A DNA stretch of 21,392 bases, from positions 1-21,392 of the IMG/VR virus record IMGVR_UViG_3300046734_000387. One strand, written 5' to 3'. The notes below the pieces were generated by a model that was not told the DNA's origin, searched no databases, and saw only the letters and a program-made list of their open reading frames with translations. The stretch comes from a virus. A program made the translations under genes and the position numbers. Positions 1-20,574 of this stretch are shown here, piece by piece (position 1 is the stretch's first letter; each line of letters starts with the position of its first letter).

Positions 1-1438
1 AGCGCCATCTATCTATTAATCCTTCAAACTCAGAGAATGTTTTATTAAAGTTTGTACCTCTTCTTTTATCATACTCTGTAAAAAATCTTACAAAATTTTG
101 TTGTGCATCTATACGTTCTTCGTCAGTTGTAAATCCTTCTTTCATAAACTCAATGCTACGCTCAAATCTACTAATTTGGTGCGGTTTAAATCCTGTCCAA
201 CGTGTGTCTCTTTGACCATCAAGATTAGCTTTCATATAGTCTAATGCTTCTTCTGCATAATGCCAATGTTCTTGTGGTGCAAGTTTTAGGCTTTGCCATG
301 CAGGATGATGCAGAGCAGGAGTATCCACAAATACTCTATGATTACCGTAAGATATTAATTTACCTGTGTTTTCGTCCCTACGTATCTTACGCACATTATG
401 GGCCTTTTGTAGCGCATGTATGCCCTCTAGCAAGCGTTTTATGCTAGGCAAGCTCAACATATTAAATGTAACAATAAACGTTACTAGACCGTTGTGTGTG
501 TTTGCTAGATAGTTGTTTACGTTGTTCCATAAAAGATCAAAATCTAGTCCGTCTCGCATGTACTCTGCTTGTTCTCCCCAACCGTCAACACTTACAAATA
601 ATCTAAAAGAATTTAATTTGTCATATTCTGTAATAAAGCCAACAGTATCTACAAAACGATTCCAGTTTTTCTCAGGCACACTAGCATTTGTAGTAATACT
701 CATATCTAAATCAGACCGACCGTTATCAACAACATAGTCTAGCACACGAAATGTATTCTTATCTAGTAGTGGTTCGCCGCCTGTCATTCTAAAGTGTTTT
801 AATTTAGGATATAAAGTTGGCCACCATTTCCAAAACGCTTCTACATAAGGATTATGTTCCCTTACTGGAATAGGATACTGTCCTGTTTCTTTAAAATACT
901 CTATACTGTTGTGTGGAACTTTTGTAGGATAAGGTCCGTTGCGTTCTATATCTTCTGCCCACTTGCTACTTAAATGGGGGCTACAGTAGCTACACGCTAA
1001 ATTACATGCATGATTAAAATTTACTTCTAAGTAGCGTGGCTCAATATCTCCATCTGCACCTTTAGCAAGTACATCGTTCCAACCTTCTTGTGCCCATGGC
1101 TCTGATGAACGATAAAATCTATCACTTAAATGGTCTCCTTGCATCGCTTCTACTTTCCAACAAGTACTGCACCCGCTAGGTTTGCCGCCTAATAACATCT
1201 CAGCACGTTCTTGTTTCTTTTGTTTAGTATTATGAAGTGCTTTAAAGTTTTTTTCAACTTCGTCTGCATCAATTTTATGTAAAGGAGGCAAGAAACAACT
1301 ATTTGTTAGTCCAGTAGTAAGATGTATACTACTCCATAACCACTTAGCCATGCACATTGTAGGTGATAACTCATCAAGTAGTGGAATTACTTCTAGTGCA
1401 GCAGCTTGTGGATCTGTTTCTGTTAATCGTTTAGCCAC
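1..1438 (-). CDS. Twitch-type radical SAM protein, copy 2 (C-terminus cut by window edge)
   Basis: My own reading of the minus strand gives about 479 uninterrupted codons running off the left edge. The radical SAM 4Fe-4S motif CNLACSYC lies at residues 145-152 (C145, C149, C152) and a GGEP motif at 220-223. An N-terminal cysteine set (C29, C48, C90, C93) resembles a half-SPASM 'twitch' cluster placed before the radical SAM core. This matches the family called twitch domain-containing radical SAM protein, common in marine phages and of unknown substrate. It is a clear paralogue of the gene at 3323-4726. Alignment to that protein suggests only about 10-20 C-terminal residues are missing. The start is GTG, overlapping the SGNH hydrolase stop by 8 bases (GTGGCTAA); an in-frame TTG about 15 codons upstream is the alternative. 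Family certain, function unknown. Confidence 0.88.
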   Translation of the reverse strand, partial: MAKRLTETDPQAAALEVIPLLDELSPTMCMAKWLWSSIHLTTGLTNSCFLPPLHKIDADEVEKNFKALHNTKQKKQERAEMLLGGKPSGCSTCWKVEAMQGDHLSDRFYRSSEPWAQEGWNDVLAKGADGDIEPRYLEVNFNHACNLACSYCSPHLSSKWAEDIERNGPYPTKVPHNSIEYFKETGQYPIPVREHNPYVEAFWKWWPTLYPKLKHFRMTGGEPLLDKNTFRVLDYVVDNGRSDLDMSITTNASVPEKNWNRFVDTVGFITEYDKLNSFRLFVSVDGWGEQAEYMRDGLDFDLLWNNVNNYLANTHNGLVTFIVTFNMLSLPSIKRLLEGIHALQKAHNVRKIRRDENTGKLISYGNHRVFVDTPALHHPAWQSLKLAPQEHWHYAEEALDYMKANLDGQRDTRWTGFKPHQISRFERSIEFMKEGFTTDEERIDAQQNFVRFFTEYDKRRGTNFNKTFSEFEGLIDRWR

Positions 1439-2078
1439 TAATAATATTCCACTTAAGAAATTTATGTTTATGAGCAAGATACATTGCTTCTGCATATCTT
1501 CGATGTGAATTTAATCCCGGATGATTATCATCGCTAGCTCGATCTACACTATGATTTGGTAAACAATCTTCCCAGTAGCTATCTTGATCTATTATCGTAG
1601 ATTTATCGAATTGCTCATCTGGCGGCTCGGTATTAATTATTCGCGTAACACCTTTGTGTTTTAGCATAGAATTAGTACAATTTATATACCAACTAGTATG
1701 TTTACGATTATCATACTCAGAATATAAATGCTTATAATATCCAACAGATATTTTATTATTTTTCCAAGGGCCAAGATCAGTTGTATCTTCGCTATTATGG
1801 AGTATGCTAAATCTGTCTATAAAACTCCATTGTATTATTACTATATCTTCTTTGTTTATTTTATGTAAATTTGTGTCTATCTTATGCATAATATACTTAT
1901 TGCCTACACCGGGCTGTGCAAGATTCAAAACAGTATCAATTTTTAATTTAACAGCTAAATGCTGCAAATAAGTATGATTGCTTGGATTAGGTCCAGGGCC
2001 ATTACTTTTTTTATCGAGACAGTCGTATAACCCGTGGCCGTAGGTATAGCTACATCCAAATGCTACTATTTTAGTCAT
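1431..2078 (-). CDS. SGNH/GDSL-like hydrolase
   Basis: This 215-aa protein has the sequence blocks of the SGNH hydrolase superfamily. Block I is FGCSYTYGHG with the presumed nucleophile S10. Block II is LNLAQPGVGN (51-60) carrying the oxyanion-hole Gly/Asn. The C-terminal block has D183 and H186 (DDNHPG) followed by H192. No signal peptide or membrane segment is seen, so it should act in the cytoplasm or on the virion. SGNH enzymes remove or transfer acyl groups, often acetyl groups on glycans. That fits the glycosyltransferase neighbours, but the substrate here is inferred only. It overlaps the upstream gene by 8 bases (ATGACTAA), with GGAG 8 bases before the ATG. Confidence 0.8.
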   Translation of the reverse strand: MTKIVAFGCSYTYGHGLYDCLDKKSNGPGPNPSNHTYLQHLAVKLKIDTVLNLAQPGVGNKYIMHKIDTNLHKINKEDIVIIQWSFIDRFSILHNSEDTTDLGPWKNNKISVGYYKHLYSEYDNRKHTSWYINCTNSMLKHKGVTRIINTEPPDEQFDKSTIIDQDSYWEDCLPNHSVDRASDDNHPGLNSHRRYAEAMYLAHKHKFLKWNIISG

Positions 2079-3330
2079 GTAGTACTCTCCATAAATCTTT
2101 GTGTAAAATATTATGTATATTAAATTGTCGATAATACCAATGGAAATGATTATGTGTTAAAATTTCATGACAATCAAGATATAACTTTTCAAGTTGTTTA
2201 TCGTTCATAGATATAATACGTCTAATTTCTTTAACTGTGATTAATAATCTTTCTTGATTATTTTCTACTGTATCATAACTTTCGTCTATTATGCCATCAA
2301 AAGTTTTATAACCAAGACTTCTGAGGTTTTTTAAATCATGCTGTGCTCCGACTAATATAAATGGTTGCCAATATATCATTGGCTTAAATATTTTTTCACT
2401 AAAAAACGTCTGTCCATTGATTCCGTATGTTTCTGTAACAATATGTAACCAACTATTAAAAAATTTGTCAGGCTTATTGTCTATTGTAGGATTATCGTCT
2501 GCGGCATTTATTCCATCGTCGTATACCATAGGTAATTGTTTAAAAAATTTAGGGCCACACCTTTTTAAAATATCTGGATAATGTTCTTGTGCTAGTTCTA
2601 TTGATCTTTCATAATATTGCATATCGCCATTATCAGTATCTTTACAACAAGTTAAAATTCCTTGATTTTTAGAAGACTGTAACAAACTTGCAAGCATTAA
2701 TCTGTGGACATGAGGACGTCTATTTAAACATATAAACTTGTGCTCTCTTTTTTTCATATCGGGCTGTAGATGCTGAAATGTAGTAAAATCATAGTCATTG
2801 TGATCACGCAGATGAGCCATATGTTGTTCCCACCAATTATAGTATACTGATGGTGTAGGATACTCTGGTGCGTCCATATTTCCACTTAAAATTACAAAAT
2901 TTTCGTAATTTAAATCATACTTTTCTCTGTAAATATCGATTACATCTTTGAAATAAGTTTGATGATTCCATCCTTCCATAGTGTTAATTATTAAGATTTT
3001 ACAAAAGTTATCTTTAATATTTCTTAAATGTAACGGTTCTATAAAAGCTATATCTTTCCATGTACACTCTGTAGGGTAAGGTATACAAAAAATTGGATAA
3101 AAATATTTTGAATTTTTAATTTGTTTCTTAGTATAAACAGGCTGAAAAACTTTTTTGCCTGCAAAATTATTACATCCTAATACAGAATACGGTTCTGTTG
3201 GCTCTGTAAAAGATTCAAGATTAGTTTTATTAATACCGTTATGAAACATGTATGTTAGTTCATCAAATTCATTTTTTTGCCATGTTTCCTCAATTAGGTC
3301 ACTTCTGGCCCAGACTTTAATTTTATCCAT
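2071..3330 (-). CDS. Glycosyltransferase-like protein (SEKIFKP-type)
   Basis: From the ATG at 3330 the product has 419 aa. An open frame continues upstream to a TTG at 3366, but the ATG gives the 8-base overlap (ATGGATAA) used at neighbouring junctions, so I prefer it. Around residue 199 is FICLNRRPHVHRL. At 299-318 is a TETYG...SEKIFKP segment, followed by QPFILVGAQ and, near 339-353, LGYKTFDGIIDESYD. The SEKIFKP/QPF pattern resembles the nucleotide-sugar-binding C-terminal half of GT-B folds such as the fucosyltransferase and exostosin families. I recognise it as a recurrent phage protein type but cannot name the sugar. It sits between a radical SAM enzyme and an SGNH hydrolase, which supports a role in glycan modification. 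The glycosyltransferase assignment is inference from motifs. Confidence 0.65.
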   Translation of the reverse strand: MDKIKVWARSDLIEETWQKNEFDELTYMFHNGINKTNLESFTEPTEPYSVLGCNNFAGKKVFQPVYTKKQIKNSKYFYPIFCIPYPTECTWKDIAFIEPLHLRNIKDNFCKILIINTMEGWNHQTYFKDVIDIYREKYDLNYENFVILSGNMDAPEYPTPSVYYNWWEQHMAHLRDHNDYDFTTFQHLQPDMKKREHKFICLNRRPHVHRLMLASLLQSSKNQGILTCCKDTDNGDMQYYERSIELAQEHYPDILKRCGPKFFKQLPMVYDDGINAADDNPTIDNKPDKFFNSWLHIVTETYGINGQTFFSEKIFKPMIYWQPFILVGAQHDLKNLRSLGYKTFDGIIDESYDTVENNQERLLITVKEIRRIISMNDKQLEKLYLDCHEILTHNHFHWYYRQFNIHNILHKDLWRVLHD

Positions 3331-4726
3331 TAGATTTTTCTTTACATTTGTAATATAGATGTGCAAGTTCAGGAAAGGTTTCTAAAAAGTTTTTATTTCT
3401 TCTTATATCATATGCATCAAAAAATTTGTAAAATTGTTTCATTTCTCTTGAGTTGTCTTTATCTAGATTTGATTGAACAAAATCTACAGCTCGTTTCATT
3501 TTATCAACTTCAGTGTCTTGAAACCCTTGGTGTCCTACTAGTTGTTCTTTGTTTGCCTGCATAAAAGCTAAGTCTTCTTGCATTATACGTAATTCTTTTT
3601 CTCCTGCAAGTGCTACAGTTTGCCAATCAGGGTATGTTAAATAACTTATATCTAGCCATAACTTTTTCCAAGTATTAGACCCGTGTTGTGTTCTCCATTC
3701 TAATAACCATTCAAGTAATTTTCTAAAATTAGTAATGCTTAAAACGTTATAAGTTGCCATAATGATTGTTTTAGCTTTCCAATCTAACATAGGTATTTCT
3801 GTTGTTACCCTATTAAGATTTTTAAGGAAGATATTAAACTCCATACCGTCACGTATATATTCTGCCTGTTCTCCAAAACTTTCTACGCTTGTATAAAGAT
3901 CAAAATCTTTTATTTTATTGTTTAGTATCAAATCATTTGCAATTTTAATAAGTCTATCTATGAATATATCTTGAACACCAAGATTGGTGTTAATACCTAG
4001 TACGAGATTAGGATTAGGATTTTCTTGTATATATTCTAGTATGCGCCAAGTATGTTTGCTTAGTAAAGGTTCGCCACCTGTAATACGAAATACTTTTAAA
4101 TTTGTATAAAGTTCAGGCCAAATTTTCCAAAAAGCATCAATGTAAGGATTTTCTTCTCGTGCAAGTATTGGAATAAGATTTTGTGTTTTCATGTAGTCTA
4201 AATTATGTACTTCGTAGTCACCTATATCGTACCCTCCAGACTGTTTTACATCTTCCATCCATTTGCTAGAAATTTGCGGACTACAATACATACATGCAAA
4301 ATTACAAGTATTATTAAAGCTAACTTCTACATATGTAGGTAAAAACTTTTCATCTAACGGATTTAGTTGTATTTTTTCTAATTGTCCTTCGTTCCAATCT
4401 TCACCACTTTTATAGTGTCTATCACTTAGATGTCCCTGATTTAGATTTTCAATATTCCAACAATAATTGCATTCTTGAGGCTGTTCTCCTATAAGCATTT
4501 TTTTACGCTGTTCAATTTTATATATTGAATTGTGTAAAGCGTGTGGATTCTTTTCTAATTCGTCTAGAGGAACGAAATGTGGAGCAGGATGATGACAACT
4601 ATGCGTATGTCCGTTGTGTAGATGCATAGTTACTTGTGTCCATTTTGCAAGACACATCGAACAACTTATGTTGTTTAGTTTTTCTCTAGCAATTTCTGCA
4701 TTAGAGTTATAAGAACTTTTTGACAA
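3323..4726 (-). CDS. Twitch-type radical SAM protein, copy 1
   Basis: This 467-aa protein carries CNFACMYC at 141-148 (C141, C145, C148), the radical SAM 4Fe-4S site, and TGGEP at 216-220, which helps bind S-adenosylmethionine. N-terminal cysteines (C22 or C25, C44, C86, C89) and nearby histidines suggest a second cluster in an N-terminal twitch domain, the mark of the phage-abundant twitch domain-containing radical SAM family. It aligns with the gene at 1-1438 throughout, including AxxEKNxxALHN, HLSDR, NPYxxAFWK and GEQAEYxRDG, so the two are paralogues. The start is TTG: AAGGAG lies 5 bases upstream and no ATG occurs before residue 24. Ten bases separate it from the upstream gene. The reaction and substrate are unknown. 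Confidence 0.88.
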   Translation of the reverse strand: MSKSSYNSNAEIAREKLNNISCSMCLAKWTQVTMHLHNGHTHSCHHPAPHFVPLDELEKNPHALHNSIYKIEQRKKMLIGEQPQECNYCWNIENLNQGHLSDRHYKSGEDWNEGQLEKIQLNPLDEKFLPTYVEVSFNNTCNFACMYCSPQISSKWMEDVKQSGGYDIGDYEVHNLDYMKTQNLIPILAREENPYIDAFWKIWPELYTNLKVFRITGGEPLLSKHTWRILEYIQENPNPNLVLGINTNLGVQDIFIDRLIKIANDLILNNKIKDFDLYTSVESFGEQAEYIRDGMEFNIFLKNLNRVTTEIPMLDWKAKTIIMATYNVLSITNFRKLLEWLLEWRTQHGSNTWKKLWLDISYLTYPDWQTVALAGEKELRIMQEDLAFMQANKEQLVGHQGFQDTEVDKMKRAVDFVQSNLDKDNSREMKQFYKFFDAYDIRRNKNFLETFPELAHLYYKCKEKSNG

Positions 4727-4731
4727 AATTG

Positions 4732-4737
4732 CTCCTT
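4732..4737 (-). promoter_or_regulatory. Ribosome binding site deciding a TTG start
   Basis: AAGGAG on the minus strand, 5 bases upstream of TTG at 4726-4724. It decides the start of the first radical SAM gene, whose frame contains no ATG until residue 24. An ATG at 4740 is in another frame and leads to a stop after about 20 codons. Confidence 0.7.
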
Positions 4738-5654
4738 CATTCTATATCAATTATTTCAGCTATTCGATTAGGATTATCGTATACTTCTTTAAAGAATTTA
4801 CTTTGCTTACTATCTAAAGGAGTTATTGCTATCGGTATATCTAGTTTACTAATAAGTTTATTACCAAGTTCTTCAATAGAGTCTTGTAATCCTTCTATTG
4901 ATACTTTTGGTTCAACTTCGTTCCAAAGACTATTTAGGTATTTAAAGTCTCTAACTTGTACATAATCCCAATCTGTACACATTGTTTTATACAATCCTTC
5001 GCGGGCTCCGTAAATTGCCCACTTTCCGTTCTCTACATCAGCACCTACCATAAGCCAAATATATAAACGGTGTAAATTCTTCCAATGATTTTTGTGAAAT
5101 TCTTCAACAGTGACTTTTACGCCTCTATCAAGAGCCATTTTTACACCTTCGCGAAATCCTGCTCTCCATGCTTGCTGTGGTGTTGCATTATTATAAACGT
5201 CTGAAAAACAACTATTTTGTTGTATGTACTGAACATCCCAACAAAAATCTACCTGAGCATGTGCATTGTCTGGTTCAGCATTTTCATGTGTTTTCATATT
5301 CAACACAAACTCTTTAGGCCAGCATTTGATACCACCGTTCCCATACATTAGTCCGTTGATAATATTTCTTCCTGCCCAACTAATTACACAATTTTTTAAA
5401 TCAATATATTCGTCAAAGTCTATCTCTTGATTAAGAAATTGTTGGTCAATAATGTTATCACCGTCAATTGTAATAAATCTTTCTGTTTCACTTAATCTTG
5501 CACAGGCTTTGTGTGCAGCATCTGAGCCGTCTACACCATGTACACGTTTTGCCCATGGCACTTTTGTGCATAGGTCTGCATAATTCTGCTCTGCGTTTGG
5601 TTCGTCGTAGGACAAATAGATTATATCGTAATCAATTGGTCTAAATTTGCTCAT
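4737..5654 (-). CDS. GT-A-like glycosyltransferase domain protein with DGD motif
   Basis: This 305-aa protein begins DYDIIYLSYDEPNAEQNY, a beta strand and loop of the kind that opens GT-A glycosyltransferases. It has RFITIDGDNIID at 59-70, where D64-G65-D66 matches a metal-binding DxD after a hydrophobic strand. Further on are HAQVDFCWD and the C-terminal WAIYGAREGL. No transmembrane helix is apparent. Phage proteins of this type commonly accompany twitch radical SAM genes; I base that on recollection, not a search. The stop of the preceding 445-aa gene directly abuts this ATG (TAAATG), so translation is probably coupled. The donor sugar and acceptor are unknown. A non-transferase nucleotide-sugar-binding role is possible. 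Confidence 0.6.
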   Translation of the reverse strand: MSKFRPIDYDIIYLSYDEPNAEQNYADLCTKVPWAKRVHGVDGSDAAHKACARLSETERFITIDGDNIIDQQFLNQEIDFDEYIDLKNCVISWAGRNIINGLMYGNGGIKCWPKEFVLNMKTHENAEPDNAHAQVDFCWDVQYIQQNSCFSDVYNNATPQQAWRAGFREGVKMALDRGVKVTVEEFHKNHWKNLHRLYIWLMVGADVENGKWAIYGAREGLYKTMCTDWDYVQVRDFKYLNSLWNEVEPKVSIEGLQDSIEELGNKLISKLDIPIAITPLDSKQSKFFKEVYDNPNRIAEIIDIE

Positions 5655-6992
5655 TTACTTTATTACCTCATGTGCATAATTTTCAAAATACTTAGTTGTA
5701 TATAAACTAGGTTCTAGAGATTCGTAATCTAATTTATCATTAAATGTTATAATAACTTCTTCATGACTAATTAGATCTTGTATAGGTATAGTTAAGGACT
5801 CGTATAGTATATTTGGATCATATTTTGCAGTAATACTAAAATAAACAGTGTCGTTATTTGAATAGCCAGATGTTCTTAAAAAGGCTTTGGTTGTAGGATT
5901 AATAGAAACTTCCCAATGTTTCGCCAAATTATTTTGTATTATAAGTAAATCAATTTCCTTATTAGTGTGTACAATATATAATTTCTTTCCAACTAATACC
6001 TTTTCTCCGTTATTTACTGTATCAATATTATTAATGTTTAATTTATCTTCGTCTAAAGAAAATATCTCTTTAGTTGATATATTAACAACTTGAATAACAT
6101 CATCACTTAGCATTATTACATTATTATTTGAATAAAAATATACTTCGCTGTATGTTTTATTATGATCTATTTTATAGTCGTCTTTTATATAGAGCTTATT
6201 GAAAGATAAAAACTTATCTCCTTTTATTTTTGGATCATCAAACTTTAACATATTATTTTCGTCTTCAAATAATATTACATCTTCGACAATTACGTCTGTA
6301 TTAGATTTTTTAAAATTTGTATTTGCTTTTTGATCTTTTTTTAATCTATATACTGTTCCTTTGTGCCATATATGTTGGCCAGCTTTATGACTAAGCTCTT
6401 TATACCAAACATCTACATGAATACCTTCGTAGATTGGAATATTCGTTTGTAAAGATATGTTATGATCAAATGTAGTCGTAGTAGTTAGTTTTACATTTTC
6501 TACAAATATTACTGCATTTTTTTGATCAAATTCTTCATTTTCCGTATTGTCTTGTAACAATTTATAAATGTTATTGTTATAAAAAACAAAACTACCTTTT
6601 GAATAACTATCTGCTTTAAGCCAAACATTAACATCTACACCTTCGTAAATTTCATCAAATACATGATGACCATTATCTGTCTTTGTTTTAGAAAACTCGT
6701 GCATAAACAAAGAAGCAGAATTATAATTATCTTCGTAATATTTTTCTTTAAGTGTAATTTGTTTTATTGATAAATCATAAATGACTATGTAATCATTTAT
6801 ACTTTTCTTACCTTCTAAAATAGGAAGAACTTTGTCTGTTTCTACTGATAGAATACTATGATTAGATTCTAACGGTCGTCTACTTTCAATCTTAATAATA
6901 GTGCCAGAGTCCTTATCATAAGAAACAAAACTAGAGTCAGCTGAAGCTTGCTGAATTTTTATACTATCAATTAATTCTTTTAGACTAGACAT
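5655..6992 (-). CDS. Hypothetical protein with a duplicated W/Y/G-rich module
   Basis: This 445-aa protein is rich in Asn, Lys, Ile and Tyr and I cannot place it in a named family. It contains an internal duplication. Residues 115-168 (IYEGVDVNVWLKAD...FVENVKL) match 187-241 (IYEGIHVDVWYKEL...VEDVILF), each with a YEG..V.VW start, a central lysine/Gly/Tyr-rich hairpin and a closing (I/F)VE(N/D)V strand. The pattern (W, then x-x-G, then the Y-(K/R)-L strand) recalls small carbohydrate-binding beta modules such as ChtBD3-like domains, but this is only a resemblance. There is no signal peptide. It overlaps the upstream glycosyltransferase by 8 bases (ATGTCTAG). It could be a virion or glycan-binding protein serving the neighbouring enzymes. 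Confidence 0.6.
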   Translation of the reverse strand: MSSLKELIDSIKIQQASADSSFVSYDKDSGTIIKIESRRPLESNHSILSVETDKVLPILEGKKSINDYIVIYDLSIKQITLKEKYYEDNYNSASLFMHEFSKTKTDNGHHVFDEIYEGVDVNVWLKADSYSKGSFVFYNNNIYKLLQDNTENEEFDQKNAVIFVENVKLTTTTTFDHNISLQTNIPIYEGIHVDVWYKELSHKAGQHIWHKGTVYRLKKDQKANTNFKKSNTDVIVEDVILFEDENNMLKFDDPKIKGDKFLSFNKLYIKDDYKIDHNKTYSEVYFYSNNNVIMLSDDVIQVVNISTKEIFSLDEDKLNINNIDTVNNGEKVLVGKKLYIVHTNKEIDLLIIQNNLAKHWEVSINPTTKAFLRTSGYSNNDTVYFSITAKYDPNILYESLTIPIQDLISHEEVIITFNDKLDYESLEPSLYTTKYFENYAHEVIK

Positions 6993-7830
6993 TTAATAAA
7001 ACCTTATAACGTTCTAAAACTGGAGTTTTTTCAACAAAATTATCTTCAGTATAATGCAAGATACCTGTTTGTATATAATTTCCAAGTTTAATTTTACATT
7101 CTGGACTAATATAACATCCAATTTTATCTAACCAATTATTGTTAACTTCGCTCCAATCCTGGCAATAAGCCTTCATATGCGTAAATGTAGGATTTTTTAT
7201 TAACGGATTAGTTATCTCTGTAACACAATCTAAATTTATTGCTGCAATGGCAGCAACTACATCCATACTAGCAAAGTCAGGAGTAAATTTATCTAGTGCT
7301 ATTTCATAAAATGCTTGCCAATTATTAACTACTAGTTCTACTTCTTTATAAAAGTTTTGAGCAAAATCATTCTTTTTAAAGTAATGAAATCCAGAAAATA
7401 AATTAGGAAGATTATTTTCAATAAATGCTTTTCTATAATAACATGTATCGGCTACATTGCCTCTATAGTCATATACTTTGCTTGTATAATATACATCGTA
7501 ATTTTTTAGTAAGTCCCACCAAACATCTATATTTTCTAATACAAGCATATCTGTATCTAAAACAATAGTTTCTTGATACGGTGTAGCATGATATAATTTC
7601 CAGCGATTTTCAATTTTCCAGTCTTTATCTTTTGCATCATCACCAAACGGTATAGGTATGATTTCGTCAAACAAACACTGATAACTCAAAGGCACTTCGT
7701 CATTAGTAACCAAGCTAATAGGGACAGAATTTTTAGTTGCTTGTAAGCTCATAGCTAACAAACATGCTTGCATTACGTAGTCAGTTGTTTCTGAGTTTTG
7801 TGCAAGAACTAGAAAACCTTTATCCTTCAT
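6985..7830 (-). CDS. GT-A-type glycosyltransferase (GT8-like), copy 2
   Basis: This 281-aa protein has the layout of a small glycogenin-like (GT8-type) transferase. The N-terminal strand is GFLVLAQNSETTDYV. VTNDE follows at 41-45. A TPYQETIVLDTDMLV segment holds the metal-binding DTD at 92-94. LFSGFHYFKK (144-153) and a later TPDFASMDVVAAIA region (183-196) correspond to acceptor-side segments of such enzymes. It is a paralogue of the upstream 284-aa protein, sharing TPY.ET..LD.D and the DFA..... region. A strong GAGGAG lies 7 bases before the ATG, inside the end of the upstream gene, which it overlaps by 11 bases. Likely a cytoplasmic sugar transferase; donor and acceptor unknown. Confidence 0.7.
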   Translation of the reverse strand: MKDKGFLVLAQNSETTDYVMQACLLAMSLQATKNSVPISLVTNDEVPLSYQCLFDEIIPIPFGDDAKDKDWKIENRWKLYHATPYQETIVLDTDMLVLENIDVWWDLLKNYDVYYTSKVYDYRGNVADTCYYRKAFIENNLPNLFSGFHYFKKNDFAQNFYKEVELVVNNWQAFYEIALDKFTPDFASMDVVAAIAAINLDCVTEITNPLIKNPTFTHMKAYCQDWSEVNNNWLDKIGCYISPECKIKLGNYIQTGILHYTEDNFVEKTPVLERYKVLLNV

Positions 7831-8674
7831 TTAGAAGCTCCTCGTCAATTATACGTCCTAAACTAAATTTATTCATTACATGGACACTTGTACCCTTTGT
7901 AGATATAGCATAATACTCTCCAAGATAATCTTTTTTTGCAACTAAAAAAGTCATTTTATCGTCTTGTTTTTCCCAAAGTATATCTTGGTCAGTAATATAA
8001 ATTAACTTGCCTGGCATTTCACCAAAAAAGTTTCCTTTACTAAATCCGTTCATTATATGAATAGCTATACTAAACGCAAAATCATTTCTAAATAAGTTTG
8101 ATTGAATTTGATAAAGTCTTCTGTAATGATTCCATTCATCTTGTATATGTTTAATTAGATTAAAATATATTTTATTTACTGAACTTTTTCTAAAGAAAAC
8201 ACATGTTGCCCAGTAAAATTCACAGCCCGTATCACTAATATATGTAAATTCTTTTGTGTTACGTGTGTTACTTAACTCACAAGAGTCTTTATAAAGTAGC
8301 AAATCTTGATTGCTTTCAAAGCATTTTAAAAACATATCATTGTTAATAACAAAGTCGCTATCTAATAAAAGAGTTTCGTCATAAGGAGTAAGATCGTATA
8401 CAACAGACCTCGACGAATTTTTAAAATTGTCACTCTTTGATGCTAATCCGCCGTCATAAAAACTACGCGAATTCATTGCATCATCATACTCTATAGAAAT
8501 AATTTTATCAAAGACAGTCGGGTCAAAGTGTTCAGTAACATAATTTGCATTATCAGTAATAATCGATGTGGGCAAATTTAAATACTTTGACACGTTTTTA
8601 GCTAAGAATATTGCTTGCTTGACGTAATCAATATTCTTGTTATTTCTAGCTATTACAAGAACACCTTTAGACAT
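7820..8674 (-). CDS. GT-A-type glycosyltransferase-like protein, copy 1
   Basis: This 284-aa protein opens with GVLVIARNNKNIDYVKQAIFLAK, the same strand-helix start as the 281-aa neighbour. It carries TPYDETLLLDSDFVI with DSD at 105-107 in the position of the metal-binding DxD. Its second half has FYWATCVFFRKSS and NDFAFSIAIHIMNG, matching the LFSGFHYFKK and DFASMDVVAAIA regions of the paralogue. The pair therefore looks like an old tandem duplication that has diverged strongly. The start is ATG, overlapping the 117-aa gene by 8 bases (ATGTCTAA) with only a weak ribosome binding site, so coupled translation is likely. The transferase role is inferred from DxD and the shared fold signature. 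Confidence 0.65.
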   Translation of the reverse strand: MSKGVLVIARNNKNIDYVKQAIFLAKNVSKYLNLPTSIITDNANYVTEHFDPTVFDKIISIEYDDAMNSRSFYDGGLASKSDNFKNSSRSVVYDLTPYDETLLLDSDFVINNDMFLKCFESNQDLLLYKDSCELSNTRNTKEFTYISDTGCEFYWATCVFFRKSSVNKIYFNLIKHIQDEWNHYRRLYQIQSNLFRNDFAFSIAIHIMNGFSKGNFFGEMPGKLIYITDQDILWEKQDDKMTFLVAKKDYLGEYYAISTKGTSVHVMNKFSLGRIIDEELLNEG

Positions 8675-9020
8675 TTATTTCTACTAACCCCTGCACTGAT
8701 CTATGTTTTTTTAGTGCTACATATTTGTTAAAATACTCGTTAGACGCTGTAAAGTATATGTCAAGTATGTTGGTATGAAATTCTTGTAGATTAGAAATTT
8801 GTATCGGCAAATCATTATCGTCTAAGATAATTGCTTCAGTGTTGTCTGAAGATAATAATGTATAACAAAAATTAATTAGTTCTTTGGTTACTGTAAACTG
8901 TGCTCCTACATAATAATAAATTAAATCTTGACTATATTTTTCTTTTAACACTCGCTTTTGATTATTAAAAGTAACCATAAAATTACTAAATTCAAGTGCT
9001 TTTTCTAGACGTTCGTCCAT
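8667..9020 (-). CDS. Conserved hypothetical phage protein
   Basis: This 117-aa, probably alpha-helical protein starts MDERLEKALEFSNFMVTFNN and contains LKEKYSQDLIYYYVGAQFTV and a LDDNDLPIQI segment. I recognise this type as a small protein recurring in marine T4-like phages, but no function is known to me. It is the first gene after the sigma-70-like promoter at 9051-9079, with AGGAG 7 bases before its ATG. It is therefore the leader gene of the glycosyltransferase/radical SAM cassette and overlaps the next gene by 8 bases. No membrane segment or cysteine motif is present. Coding status is well supported by the ribosome binding site and coupling; the function is open. Confidence 0.8.
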   Translation of the reverse strand: MDERLEKALEFSNFMVTFNNQKRVLKEKYSQDLIYYYVGAQFTVTKELINFCYTLLSSDNTEAIILDDNDLPIQISNLQEFHTNILDIYFTASNEYFNKYVALKKHRSVQGLVEINV

Positions 9021-9050: not shown

Positions 9051-9079
9051 AGTATATAACAGATTTTTTGTTTTGTCAA
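9051..9079 (-). promoter_or_regulatory. Sigma-70-type promoter of the modification cassette
   Basis: On the minus strand, a perfect -35 box TTGACA (9079-9074) is followed by a 17-base AT-rich spacer and the -10 box TATACT (9056-9051), one mismatch from TATAAT. Transcription would start near 9044, about 24 bases before the ATG at 9020, leaving a short leader with an AGGAG site. It lies in the 70-base gap after the late-type 443-aa gene. In T4-like phages, host-sigma promoters of this quality usually serve early genes, so the cassette may be expressed early, unlike the adjacent virion genes. That timing is inference. No convincing terminator hairpin was seen in the gap, so read-through from the virion genes is also possible. 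Confidence 0.8.
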
Positions 9080-18525: not shown

Positions 18526-20574
18526 TTATTGTCCAGTATAAATTATATAGTTAATAGATAAGTACGGATTCATTATATTAAATTGTTGTCCAACGTTATC
18601 TGATTTTATTCCGCCACTTGCTGGATATGCTTGGGTTCCGCCTGTGCCTGGATCGATAGTAAAAGTGATCGCTTCCTCGTCTACTGGTTCTCCAGATCCA
18701 ACACGCAATCCATAATATTGTGTTCCGCTCGGTGCTTCCATGTCATGTTCGTGATCAGGAAGATTTTCTGTGCTTATAAATCTTTCTTCTGCGCCAGCGT
18801 TCCCGCCAATCGCATCAGCGGCAATATCAGTAACTCTGTCTGCAGATACGCCTCCCATATTATCTGCACCCATTGCAAATCGTCCTCTCAGGTCTGGTAA
18901 TGCAAAAGAATTGACGCCTTGATCTGATAATAACGATGCATCTTTAAAATTAAACCCAATTGAATTGAATAGCTCCGTGTAATCGGATTTCAATACTTCG
19001 GCGCCATTGCACAATAGCCATCCTGTTGGGGCTTCGATGCCTCCATATGGCATAATAGATCCTGCAGGCACTAGTGGTATTGTTTTGAGTAAATTACGTT
19101 TAGATATTTTATAAACACCGGTAGTACCTGAGCGTTTATTTAACAAAAGCTCGTCTTGATTGTCAGCATCGTAAATTGTATCTTTTCTAGAAATAAAACT
19201 ATTAGAAATTGTTACATCAAGTTGTTTCAATGTTCCGCCTGTTTGTCCGTCAAAATCAATACTACTTGGTTCAACATCGCCTATTAACGCAAAGGTAGTA
19301 GCACTTACAAGTCTATCTGCACTACCTGCTCTCCCTGTAACTGTTCCGTTTACATTACCTTGCAAATTTCCTACAAAGTTATTTGAGTAAACTTGATCAA
19401 ATTTTAAACTCGGAGTACCTATATCTCTCGTTCCGGACCCATCTGGGATAATATCTGCAGTTGTTACGGAACCGCCTATAGTTATGTTGCCTCCTACATT
19501 TAGGTCTAATCCTATTCCAACACCACCTGTGGTTACTATTGAGCCAGAGCTAATATCGCTACTTGGTATATTATTTTCTACGATAATTGTGCCTGTTTGT
19601 GGAGACCCGTCTCGTGGGCGCACTTTTATATCGCCTTTGACATCTAATTCTGCCTCAGGTCCTAAGTTGTTTACTCCTACAAAACCTGCGCTATCTAAAC
19701 GTAGTAATGTTGGAAATGCTGTTGACGTTTTTAATCTAAAATCTATGTTAGATCCAGCAATACTTTGAGAAACTACAGCAGCTTCATTCTCTATAGATAG
19801 TTTTAATTGATTGCCCGAACCAATTTGTAATCCTTCGTTGTTTTTTATAGAAAGATCAAAATTTGTTTGGGTAGGCGTATCTGCTCTTAAAAAATTACTC
19901 GCAGGAACTTTTCTTCCTGCAATTACTAATGATTCAGCCTTTTCTGATAAACCATAATATTTAAGTTCTTCACCTACAAGTAATTGACTTGTAATATTCA
20001 TACCTGCTTTAATGCCTGTTCTAAATCCAACAAGTGTTATTTTTGGTACAAATGATTGGTCACTTAATATAATAACTGGCTGTTCTTTAATTTTTAAAAT
20101 TAATACTGTATAAGTAACATCATCATCGCCTATAATTTCTTCACTTGTTGCGCCAGTAAGTAATCCATCACTAAACTGTGGGCCGACTAACACCCAGCCA
20201 GCACCAGTAAAAAGATATAGCTGTTGTGATTCTGTATTAACCCAAACATCTCCTGCTATACTATTTGACACTTCAGGTTGTGTAGATGATTTTTTTAAAC
20301 CGCCACTAGCAGTCCATGTTGTTCCGTCATACAATTTTAATTGATTAACACCGTCGCTAGTATCATACCATAGTTGTCCTTCAACCGGACGTGCAGGAGC
20401 ATTAGCACTTGCAAAATTTTCTAATAAGTGTAAAAAGTTCTCAGAAACTGCCTGGCCGTATGATGTAACATTCCTACCAGGAAGGGTAATACTAGTTTCT
20501 GTATTTAATGTAGCATCTTCAACTATTATTGAACCTTTATTAATACTGTCTGTATATTCTATTTGATATGGCAT
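18526..20574 (-). CDS. Tail fibre with C-terminal phage tail collar domain (T4 gp12-like tip)
   Basis: This 682-aa protein begins with the shared fibre N-terminus (PGRNVTSYGQ, SENFLHLLENF, PVEGQLWYD, LKLYDGT.W, GDVWVN, QLYLFTG, LVGPQ). The middle has beta-helical fibre signatures such as GVGIGLDLNVGGNITIGG and SLKFDQVYSNNFVG (389-402). The tail collar domain runs from VPAGSIMPYGG (502-512) through GWLLCNG to FALPDLRGRFAMG (557-569). NLPDHEHD (604-611) supplies an H-E-H pair comparable to the metal-binding HxH of T4 gp12, and it ends NIMNPYLSINYIIYTG. T4 gp12 is the short tail fibre that anchors the phage to lipopolysaccharide. AGGA 7 bases upstream supports the ATG. Confidence 0.88.
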   Translation of the reverse strand: MPYQIEYTDSINKGSIIVEDATLNTETSITLPGRNVTSYGQAVSENFLHLLENFASANAPARPVEGQLWYDTSDGVNQLKLYDGTTWTASGGLKKSSTQPEVSNSIAGDVWVNTESQQLYLFTGAGWVLVGPQFSDGLLTGATSEEIIGDDDVTYTVLILKIKEQPVIILSDQSFVPKITLVGFRTGIKAGMNITSQLLVGEELKYYGLSEKAESLVIAGRKVPASNFLRADTPTQTNFDLSIKNNEGLQIGSGNQLKLSIENEAAVVSQSIAGSNIDFRLKTSTAFPTLLRLDSAGFVGVNNLGPEAELDVKGDIKVRPRDGSPQTGTIIVENNIPSSDISSGSIVTTGGVGIGLDLNVGGNITIGGSVTTADIIPDGSGTRDIGTPSLKFDQVYSNNFVGNLQGNVNGTVTGRAGSADRLVSATTFALIGDVEPSSIDFDGQTGGTLKQLDVTISNSFISRKDTIYDADNQDELLLNKRSGTTGVYKISKRNLLKTIPLVPAGSIMPYGGIEAPTGWLLCNGAEVLKSDYTELFNSIGFNFKDASLLSDQGVNSFALPDLRGRFAMGADNMGGVSADRVTDIAADAIGGNAGAEERFISTENLPDHEHDMEAPSGTQYYGLRVGSGEPVDEEAITFTIDPGTGGTQAYPASGGIKSDNVGQQFNIMNPYLSINYIIYTGQ

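Follow-up and report, generated by a model that had tools for sequence, protein, structure and literature searches.

The window, a 21,392-base IMG/VR virus record, carries what we take, with moderate confidence, to be the first part of a phage operon for assembling and tailoring glycans. The operon lies in the tail-fiber (host-recognition) region, and its radical SAM (rSAM) enzymes would oxidize (in the manner of BtrN) or epimerize a sugar belonging to a glycan associated with the tail or the host surface. The source is an uncultured, tailed, and probably marine phage. The two rSAM enzymes encoded in the window belong to a family with an N-terminal twitch domain, and they differ in how firmly they are fixed in the cassette.

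Organization of the cassette

Positions 1–5654 of the minus strand hold five tightly packed genes (GT-A, rSAM copy 2, a 431-amino acid ORF, an SGNH hydrolase, and rSAM copy 1), which overlap their neighbors or stand ~10 bases from them. A sequence-only reading of this DNA had two rSAM genes flanking a glycosyltransferase and an SGNH hydrolase. This arrangement is borne out: both rSAM ORFs, on the minus strand, lie where that reading placed them, on either side of the predicted GT-B glycosyltransferase and the SGNH hydrolase, and both match NCBIfam family NF033640. The features of the region are as follows.

2–1438, minus strand: rSAM copy 1 (N-terminal twitch and radical SAM core); the last few residues lie beyond the window edge
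1431–2078, minus strand: putative SGNH/GDSL-type hydrolase, 215 amino acids; invariant GCS, N, and D..H blocks in 13 relatives
2071–3366, minus strand: predicted GT-B glycosyltransferase, 431 amino acids in the open frame; from AlphaFold2 model and VIA-align
3323–4726, minus strand: rSAM copy 2 (N-terminal twitch and radical SAM core); TTG start, with AAGGAG ahead of it
4737–5654, minus strand: GT-A-like glycosyltransferase, 305 amino acids; invariant DxD (D64, D66) in alignment
5655–6992, minus strand: 445-amino acid tail-fiber-like protein; weak CBM5/12-like match (PF02839, 20.1 bits, cutoff of 26.2 not reached)
6985–7830, minus strand: putative GT-A glycosyltransferase; DxD-like motif LDTDMLV, without a Pfam match
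7820–8674, minus strand: putative GT-A glycosyltransferase, paralog of the 6985–7830 gene; LDSDFVI motif, same family by protein clustering
8667–9020, minus strand: 117-amino acid conserved protein, the first cassette gene after the tail-fiber genes; family in 91 loci
9051–9079, minus strand: candidate sigma70-like promoter; 11/12 match, the region's best, located in the gap that precedes the cassette

In the window, the cassette thus comprises two N-terminal-twitch rSAM enzymes and an SGNH hydrolase, together with four glycosyltransferases, of which one is assigned by fold and three are assigned by motif. The promoter candidate is tentative, as sigma70-like matches in the region are in total no more numerous than in shuffled sequence. 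Farther away, at 18526–20574, is a tail-collar fiber protein; among the matches listed, those to unrelated phages cover no more than about a third of it.

The larger cassette in related phages

A larger glycan cassette is truncated by the window edge; in relatives it contains further rSAM paralogs. The count of two copies given by the sequence-only reading is accordingly an effect of the window edge, with homologous contigs carrying more rSAM genes. NF033640 genes are present in all 42 of the 42 related virus records, with up to 17 matches in one record (178 kb). Past copy 1, aligned contigs continue with a second GT-B-family gene, a hexapeptide acyltransferase, and sometimes another SGNH-like protein; they also carry a DegT aminotransferase, a UDP-sugar dehydrogenase, another GT-A, a third rSAM gene, and a methyltransferase-like protein (family 27). 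GT7 and a carbamoyltransferase are further members of relatives' cassettes.

The order of genes is well kept. Nearly all mapped relatives with copy 1 have tail-fiber genes, the 117-amino acid protein, two GT genes, a tail-like protein, GT-A, and rSAM in succession. In all close relatives, the 445-amino acid protein is preceded by the GT pair and followed by the GT-A gene (4737–5654), and this GT-A gene precedes the rSAM genes in most of them. Family 22 directly follows the rSAM genes in phages, and is found beside rSAM genes in some Bdellovibrionota. In a set of 50,697 phage records, cultured phages had no real counterpart of copy 2, of the GT-A gene, or of one member of the GT pair; the only matches to copy 2 were in two Vibrio phages, with 24% identity.

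Two enzymes of the N-terminal twitch family

NF033640 (N_Twi_rSAM) matches copy 1 with 327 bits over model positions 1–396 of 398 and copy 2 with 310.9 bits over positions 2–398 (cutoff 170). The N-terminal position that had been noted for the extra cluster is correct, but as a distinguishing feature it is not new: a predicted N-terminal auxiliary cluster is the defining trait of this existing family. Both copies retain CxxxCxxC, GGEP, and four N-terminal cysteines, as originally observed. Copy 2 has CNFACMYC, GGEP, and twitch cysteines C25, C44, C86, and C89; copy 1 has CNLACSYC, GGEP, and twitch cysteines C48, C67, C109, and C112 (open-frame numbering). The seven cluster cysteines are 100% conserved in 234 non-redundant relatives. 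The twitch spacing is Cx18C followed by Cx2C, ahead of the CxxxCxxC core, and the first two cysteines are 18 apart in 233 of the 234.

Pfam places SPASM (PF13186) at the N-terminus in nine of ten paralogs tested, above the cutoff in seven of the ten. It finds no SPASM domain in the window copies themselves and gives nothing useful for the N-terminal part of copy 2 alone, and in a structure search the N-terminal domain of the copy 2 model got no match of its own. The radical SAM core (PF04055) scores 31.4 bits in copy 1, above the cutoff, and 19.2 bits in copy 2, below it. The AlphaFold2 model of copy 2 (pLDDT 92) aligns to rSAM cores with Z up to 13.8.

The most probable start of copy 1 is GTG 1438 ('gtggctaaacga') rather than ATG 1495, because orthologs begin there and this GTG overlaps the SGNH stop. 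Its cysteines are the seven of the clusters, with one extra, C5, upstream of the likely start. At the other end, the window removes only the last few residues (orthologs extend 0–8 residues further), and the C-terminal motif FFTEYDKRRG is retained.

An optional enzyme and a hypervariable gene pair

Copy 1, the backbone copy, occurs in all close relatives whose sequence spans this position. Copy 2 is absent from seven relatives (L086, L087, L093, L094, L095, L100, and L112) that keep copy 1 at 73–98% identity; their gene order is GT-A, GT-B and SGNH, then copy 1. Because copy 1 belongs to the conserved backbone and copy 2 is optional, the two are likely to have different roles. Different substrates or sequential steps had been suggested for them, and the evidence carries this suggestion as far as roles.

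The cleanest case lacking copy 2 is L095, in which GT-A is 87.5% and copy 1 is 96% identical to the window, with GT-B at 46% and SGNH at 35%; DNA similarity stops at the end of GT-A and resumes at the start of copy 1. L003 has copy 2 at 92% and copy 1 at 90%, yet its GT-B and SGNH are again at 46% and 35%. With the rSAM genes conserved in both comparisons and GT-B and SGNH not, the GT-B/SGNH pair either evolves rapidly or is exchanged. Natural plus/minus pairs such as the window and L095 isolate the effect of a single rSAM gene.

Both members of the pair were assigned from features other than a strong Pfam match. For the 2071–3366 ORF no Pfam model matches. Its AlphaFold2 model (pLDDT 83) gave 50 VIA-align matches in the list, all of them glycosyltransferases, of which the best was an alpha-1,3-fucosyltransferase (2nzx; Z 13.0, 288 aligned residues, rmsd 5.3). 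The nearest solved folds are a GT10 fucosyltransferase and exostosins, and Foldseek returned no match to the model with E below 1e-3. The modeled fold thus identifies the product as a predicted GT-B-fold glycosyltransferase. The putative SGNH hydrolase (1431–2078) is assigned on residues invariant in 13 relatives: G8-C9-S10, N52, G57, D183, and H186. By inspection, these correspond to block I Ser (S10), block II Gly (G57), block III Asn (N52/N60), and block V Asp-x-x-His (D183/H186). Pfam lends little support (PF00657, E 0.017, for a homolog).

Relatives in Bdellovibrionota

A scan of cellular genomes (one per species) gave matches mostly in Bdellovibrionota. Eight Bdellovibrionota genomes have 5–33 NF033640 matches each, not all above the cutoff, and some of these are in chromosomal arrays. 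Of 21 such genomes, 8 carry the phage GT-A family, at 12 places in all. It adjoins an rSAM gene in three separate regions (G049:C7, G045:C86, and G061:C15) and a family-27 gene in four. Five apparent cellular matches (L183, L237, L240, L248, and L256) have phage tail or phage-cassette genes alongside, and for this reason we excluded them as phage contigs that had been binned into MAGs.

The recurrence of the same neighbors in two unrelated settings, phages and Bdellovibrionota, argues for the GT-A/methyltransferase/rSAM neighborhood being a functional module. Only tentatively do we extend this to a modular system shared by phages and predatory Bdellovibrionota, in which serial N-twitch rSAM enzymes, a dedicated GT-A, and a methyltransferase might build radical-modified sugars of surface glycans; in phages, a variable GT-B/SGNH pair might be swapped between conserved rSAM genes to change the surface type.

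Proposed reaction and its target

In the mechanism we propose, each rSAM enzyme would reductively cleave SAM at the [4Fe-4S] cluster of CxxxCxxC, and the 5'-deoxyadenosyl radical would take hydrogen from a carbon of a sugar, be it a nucleotide sugar, a lipid-linked sugar, or a finished glycan. The auxiliary cluster, which like that of BtrN has four cysteines, would then accept the substrate electron to give an oxidation, or else support epimerization. Oxidation would yield a ketone or aldehyde, open to amination or epimerization by partner enzymes. Copy 1 would work on a conserved part of the glycan and copy 2 would add an optional modification, while the hypervariable GT-B and SGNH would add and trim a variable sugar or acyl group. 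Swapping GT-B and SGNH could then change the surface type while the core chemistry stays the same.

Two features guide this choice of reaction. In BtrN, the auxiliary cluster is held by four cysteines and the enzyme carries out a two-electron alcohol oxidation of an aminocyclitol; in MoaA, the auxiliary cluster has an open iron site, which binds substrate (PMC9012708). The four invariant twitch cysteines favor the mode of BtrN over that of MoaA. Since the partners are glycosyltransferases, an aminotransferase, and a dehydrogenase, the enzymes most likely oxidize or epimerize a sugar. We found no substrate or product for any NF033640 member, and the family is biochemically uncharacterized as far as we found; the phage cassettes are compact operons whose partners (glycosyltransferase, esterase, aminotransferase, and dehydrogenase) hint at its substrate class.

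Comparison with solved structures gives a mixed picture. A sequence search found no close similarity, only MoaA (E 8e-4). Foldseek with the copy 2 model gave just two matches below 1e-3, both chains of AprD4, a sugar-acting rSAM enzyme, and structure comparison put SkfB, BlsE, anSME, and DesII nearest among rSAM cores. The nearest folds accordingly include enzymes that act on sugars or nucleoside sugars (AprD4, BlsE, and DesII) and several that act on peptides (SkfB, anSME, and SuiB), the latter counting against a sugar substrate. Arrays of up to 17 paralogs, which exceed the usual need of a single glycan pathway, also count against it. Further points against the proposed mechanism are that Pfam finds no SPASM domain in the window copies and that the N-terminal domain drew no structural match of its own.

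The proposed sugar chemistry could be aimed at the host rather than at the virion. The cassette would then remodel host lipopolysaccharide or capsule during infection, for example as a block to superinfection. We consider this a real possibility, although we lean slightly against it. The gene set is similar to that for O-antigen, the hypervariability of GT-B and SGNH is reminiscent of serotype switching, and host-surface remodeling is the explanation offered in PMC7029224 for the glycosyltransferases of the pelagimyophage host-recognition cluster. However, we saw no gene for a flippase, polymerase, or membrane acyltransferase in the window, and virion decoration would also lead one to expect the fixed link to tail-fiber genes across phages.

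Alternatively, the rSAM enzymes might modify protein, forming a thioether or C-C crosslink or epimerizing residues on the 445-amino acid CBM-like protein or on upstream fiber proteins, with the glycosyltransferases decorating the same protein. The position of the cassette directly downstream of tail-fiber genes, usually with a tail-like protein inside it, would suit such a role, as would the presence of the peptide-modifying SPASM enzymes SkfB, anSME, CteB, and SuiB among the best structural matches. We nonetheless judge it rather unlikely. The partner genes encode sugar enzymes, and the rSAM loci of Bdellovibrionota have no tail proteins alongside. Nor is there a short precursor-peptide gene beside the rSAM genes or room for one within 1–5654: because genes there overlap or stand ~10 bases apart, a RiPP precursor does not fit in the cassette, although a larger protein could still serve as substrate.

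If the enzymes do act on sugars, as in the glycan-tailoring operon that we prefer, they would give a virus a way of placing unusual sugars on its virions or on the host surface.

Ancient paralogy and purifying selection

Copies 1 and 2 are 37% identical. A tree of 234 rSAM sequences divides the phage family broadly in two: one group has CxxxCxYC and includes both window copies, and the other has mostly CxxxCRxC or similar. Within the CxxxCxYC group, copies 1 and 2 belong to different clades; both clades have full local support and also contain sequences from other phages. The phylogeny proposed earlier as a check does place the two copies apart. Counted dN/dS against relatives of 75–97% identity gave omega of 0.077–0.105 for copy 1 and 0.045–0.134 for copy 2; dS nears saturation for the more distant pairs, so that among the values for copy 1 those obtained with L083 and L095 (0.077 and 0.105) are the most reliable. 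Judged by their sequences, the copies are ancient paralogs under purifying selection. The tree and dN/dS reject a recent tandem duplication with one copy decaying, an idea suggested by their shared family and operon and now highly improbable given their identity, the separation of the copies into supported clades that also include distant phages, the omega of 0.05–0.13 in both, and the retention of every motif. The low omega values, together with the retained seven cluster cysteines and GGEP, support the earlier expectation that both copies look functional.

Comparison with known systems

The literature that we searched held no account of N-terminal SPASM enzymes as such or of Bdellovibrio rSAM arrays, and we did not find in it that the family splits, that one copy is optional, that GT and SGNH are hypervariable, or that there is a link to Bdellovibrionota. 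The nearest phage systems are of the same region type as the window, with tail fibers, glycosyltransferases, and rSAM cassettes. One report notes glycosyltransferases and radical SAM cassettes in the pelagimyophage host-recognition cluster (PMC7029224), and another describes an environmental T4-like genome that carries 12 rSAM genes as well as genes for Fe-S assembly (PMC5332604). Sugar-acting enzymes in the window would fit such marine T4-like phages with their many rSAM and Fe-S assembly genes. In the relevant passages, neither report resolves the rSAM family, the ancient paralogy, the optional status of one copy, the hypervariability of GT and SGNH, or the connection with Bdellovibrionota.

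With BtrN and other SPASM/twitch enzymes, both window copies share the CxxxCxxC core and the four-cysteine auxiliary motif, but the auxiliary domain is C-terminal in those enzymes and N-terminal in the window copies. With NF033640 they share the full-length plan of an N-terminal twitch followed by a radical SAM core. The phage copies differ from the rest of that family not in domain plan, but in forming clades of their own and in occurring in arrays.

The 445-amino acid protein and its neighbors

5655–6992, 445-amino acid protein, weak CBM5/12 match
8667–9020, small conserved protein, 117 amino acids

In the window and its close relatives, the gene for the 445-amino acid protein always has the pair of putative GT-A glycosyltransferase genes on one side and the single GT-A gene (4737–5654, minus strand) on the other. 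The protein has two W..Y..G..V-type repeats; it may be a tail adhesin, and may also be the glycan acceptor. The 117-amino acid protein occurs at 91 loci, its gene located between tail-fibre genes and glycosyltransferases; it has no trustworthy family assignment.

Genes accompanying radical SAM genes in related loci

L095 12250–12846 and homologues, very short DegT/DnrJ/EryC1 aminotransferase
L175 17763–18845 and L203 8829–9743, function-unassigned family, ~300–360 amino acids
L051 12932–13960, arginine-deiminase/amidinotransferase-like protein (PF02274)
L101 14962–16957, B12-binding radical SAM protein
L258 and L259 (Bdellovibrionota genome G049, contig 1, 738–778 kb), N-twitch radical SAM array

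The aminotransferase is ~198 amino acids in length, versus 360 for the Pfam model, and retains the SFQFxKH motif with its lysine. The ~300–360-amino acid family directly follows radical SAM genes in phages and adjoins them in some Bdellovibrionota chromosomes. The PF02274 protein occurs at seven phage loci with radical SAM genes; by eye, an ORF in the Bdellovibrionota array (L259 11166–12242) resembles that of L051. In several relatives, the radical SAM array terminates with the B12-binding protein.

Five loci (L183, L237, L240, L248, and L256) are phage contigs that binning placed in bacterial MAGs; the titles of these MAGs name Neomarinimicrobiota, Rickettsiales, Pelagibacter, Pelagibacterales, and Verrucomicrobia. 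The G049 array is chromosomal, with ~13 strong N-twitch radical SAM genes within 40 kb and 33 matches across the whole genome.
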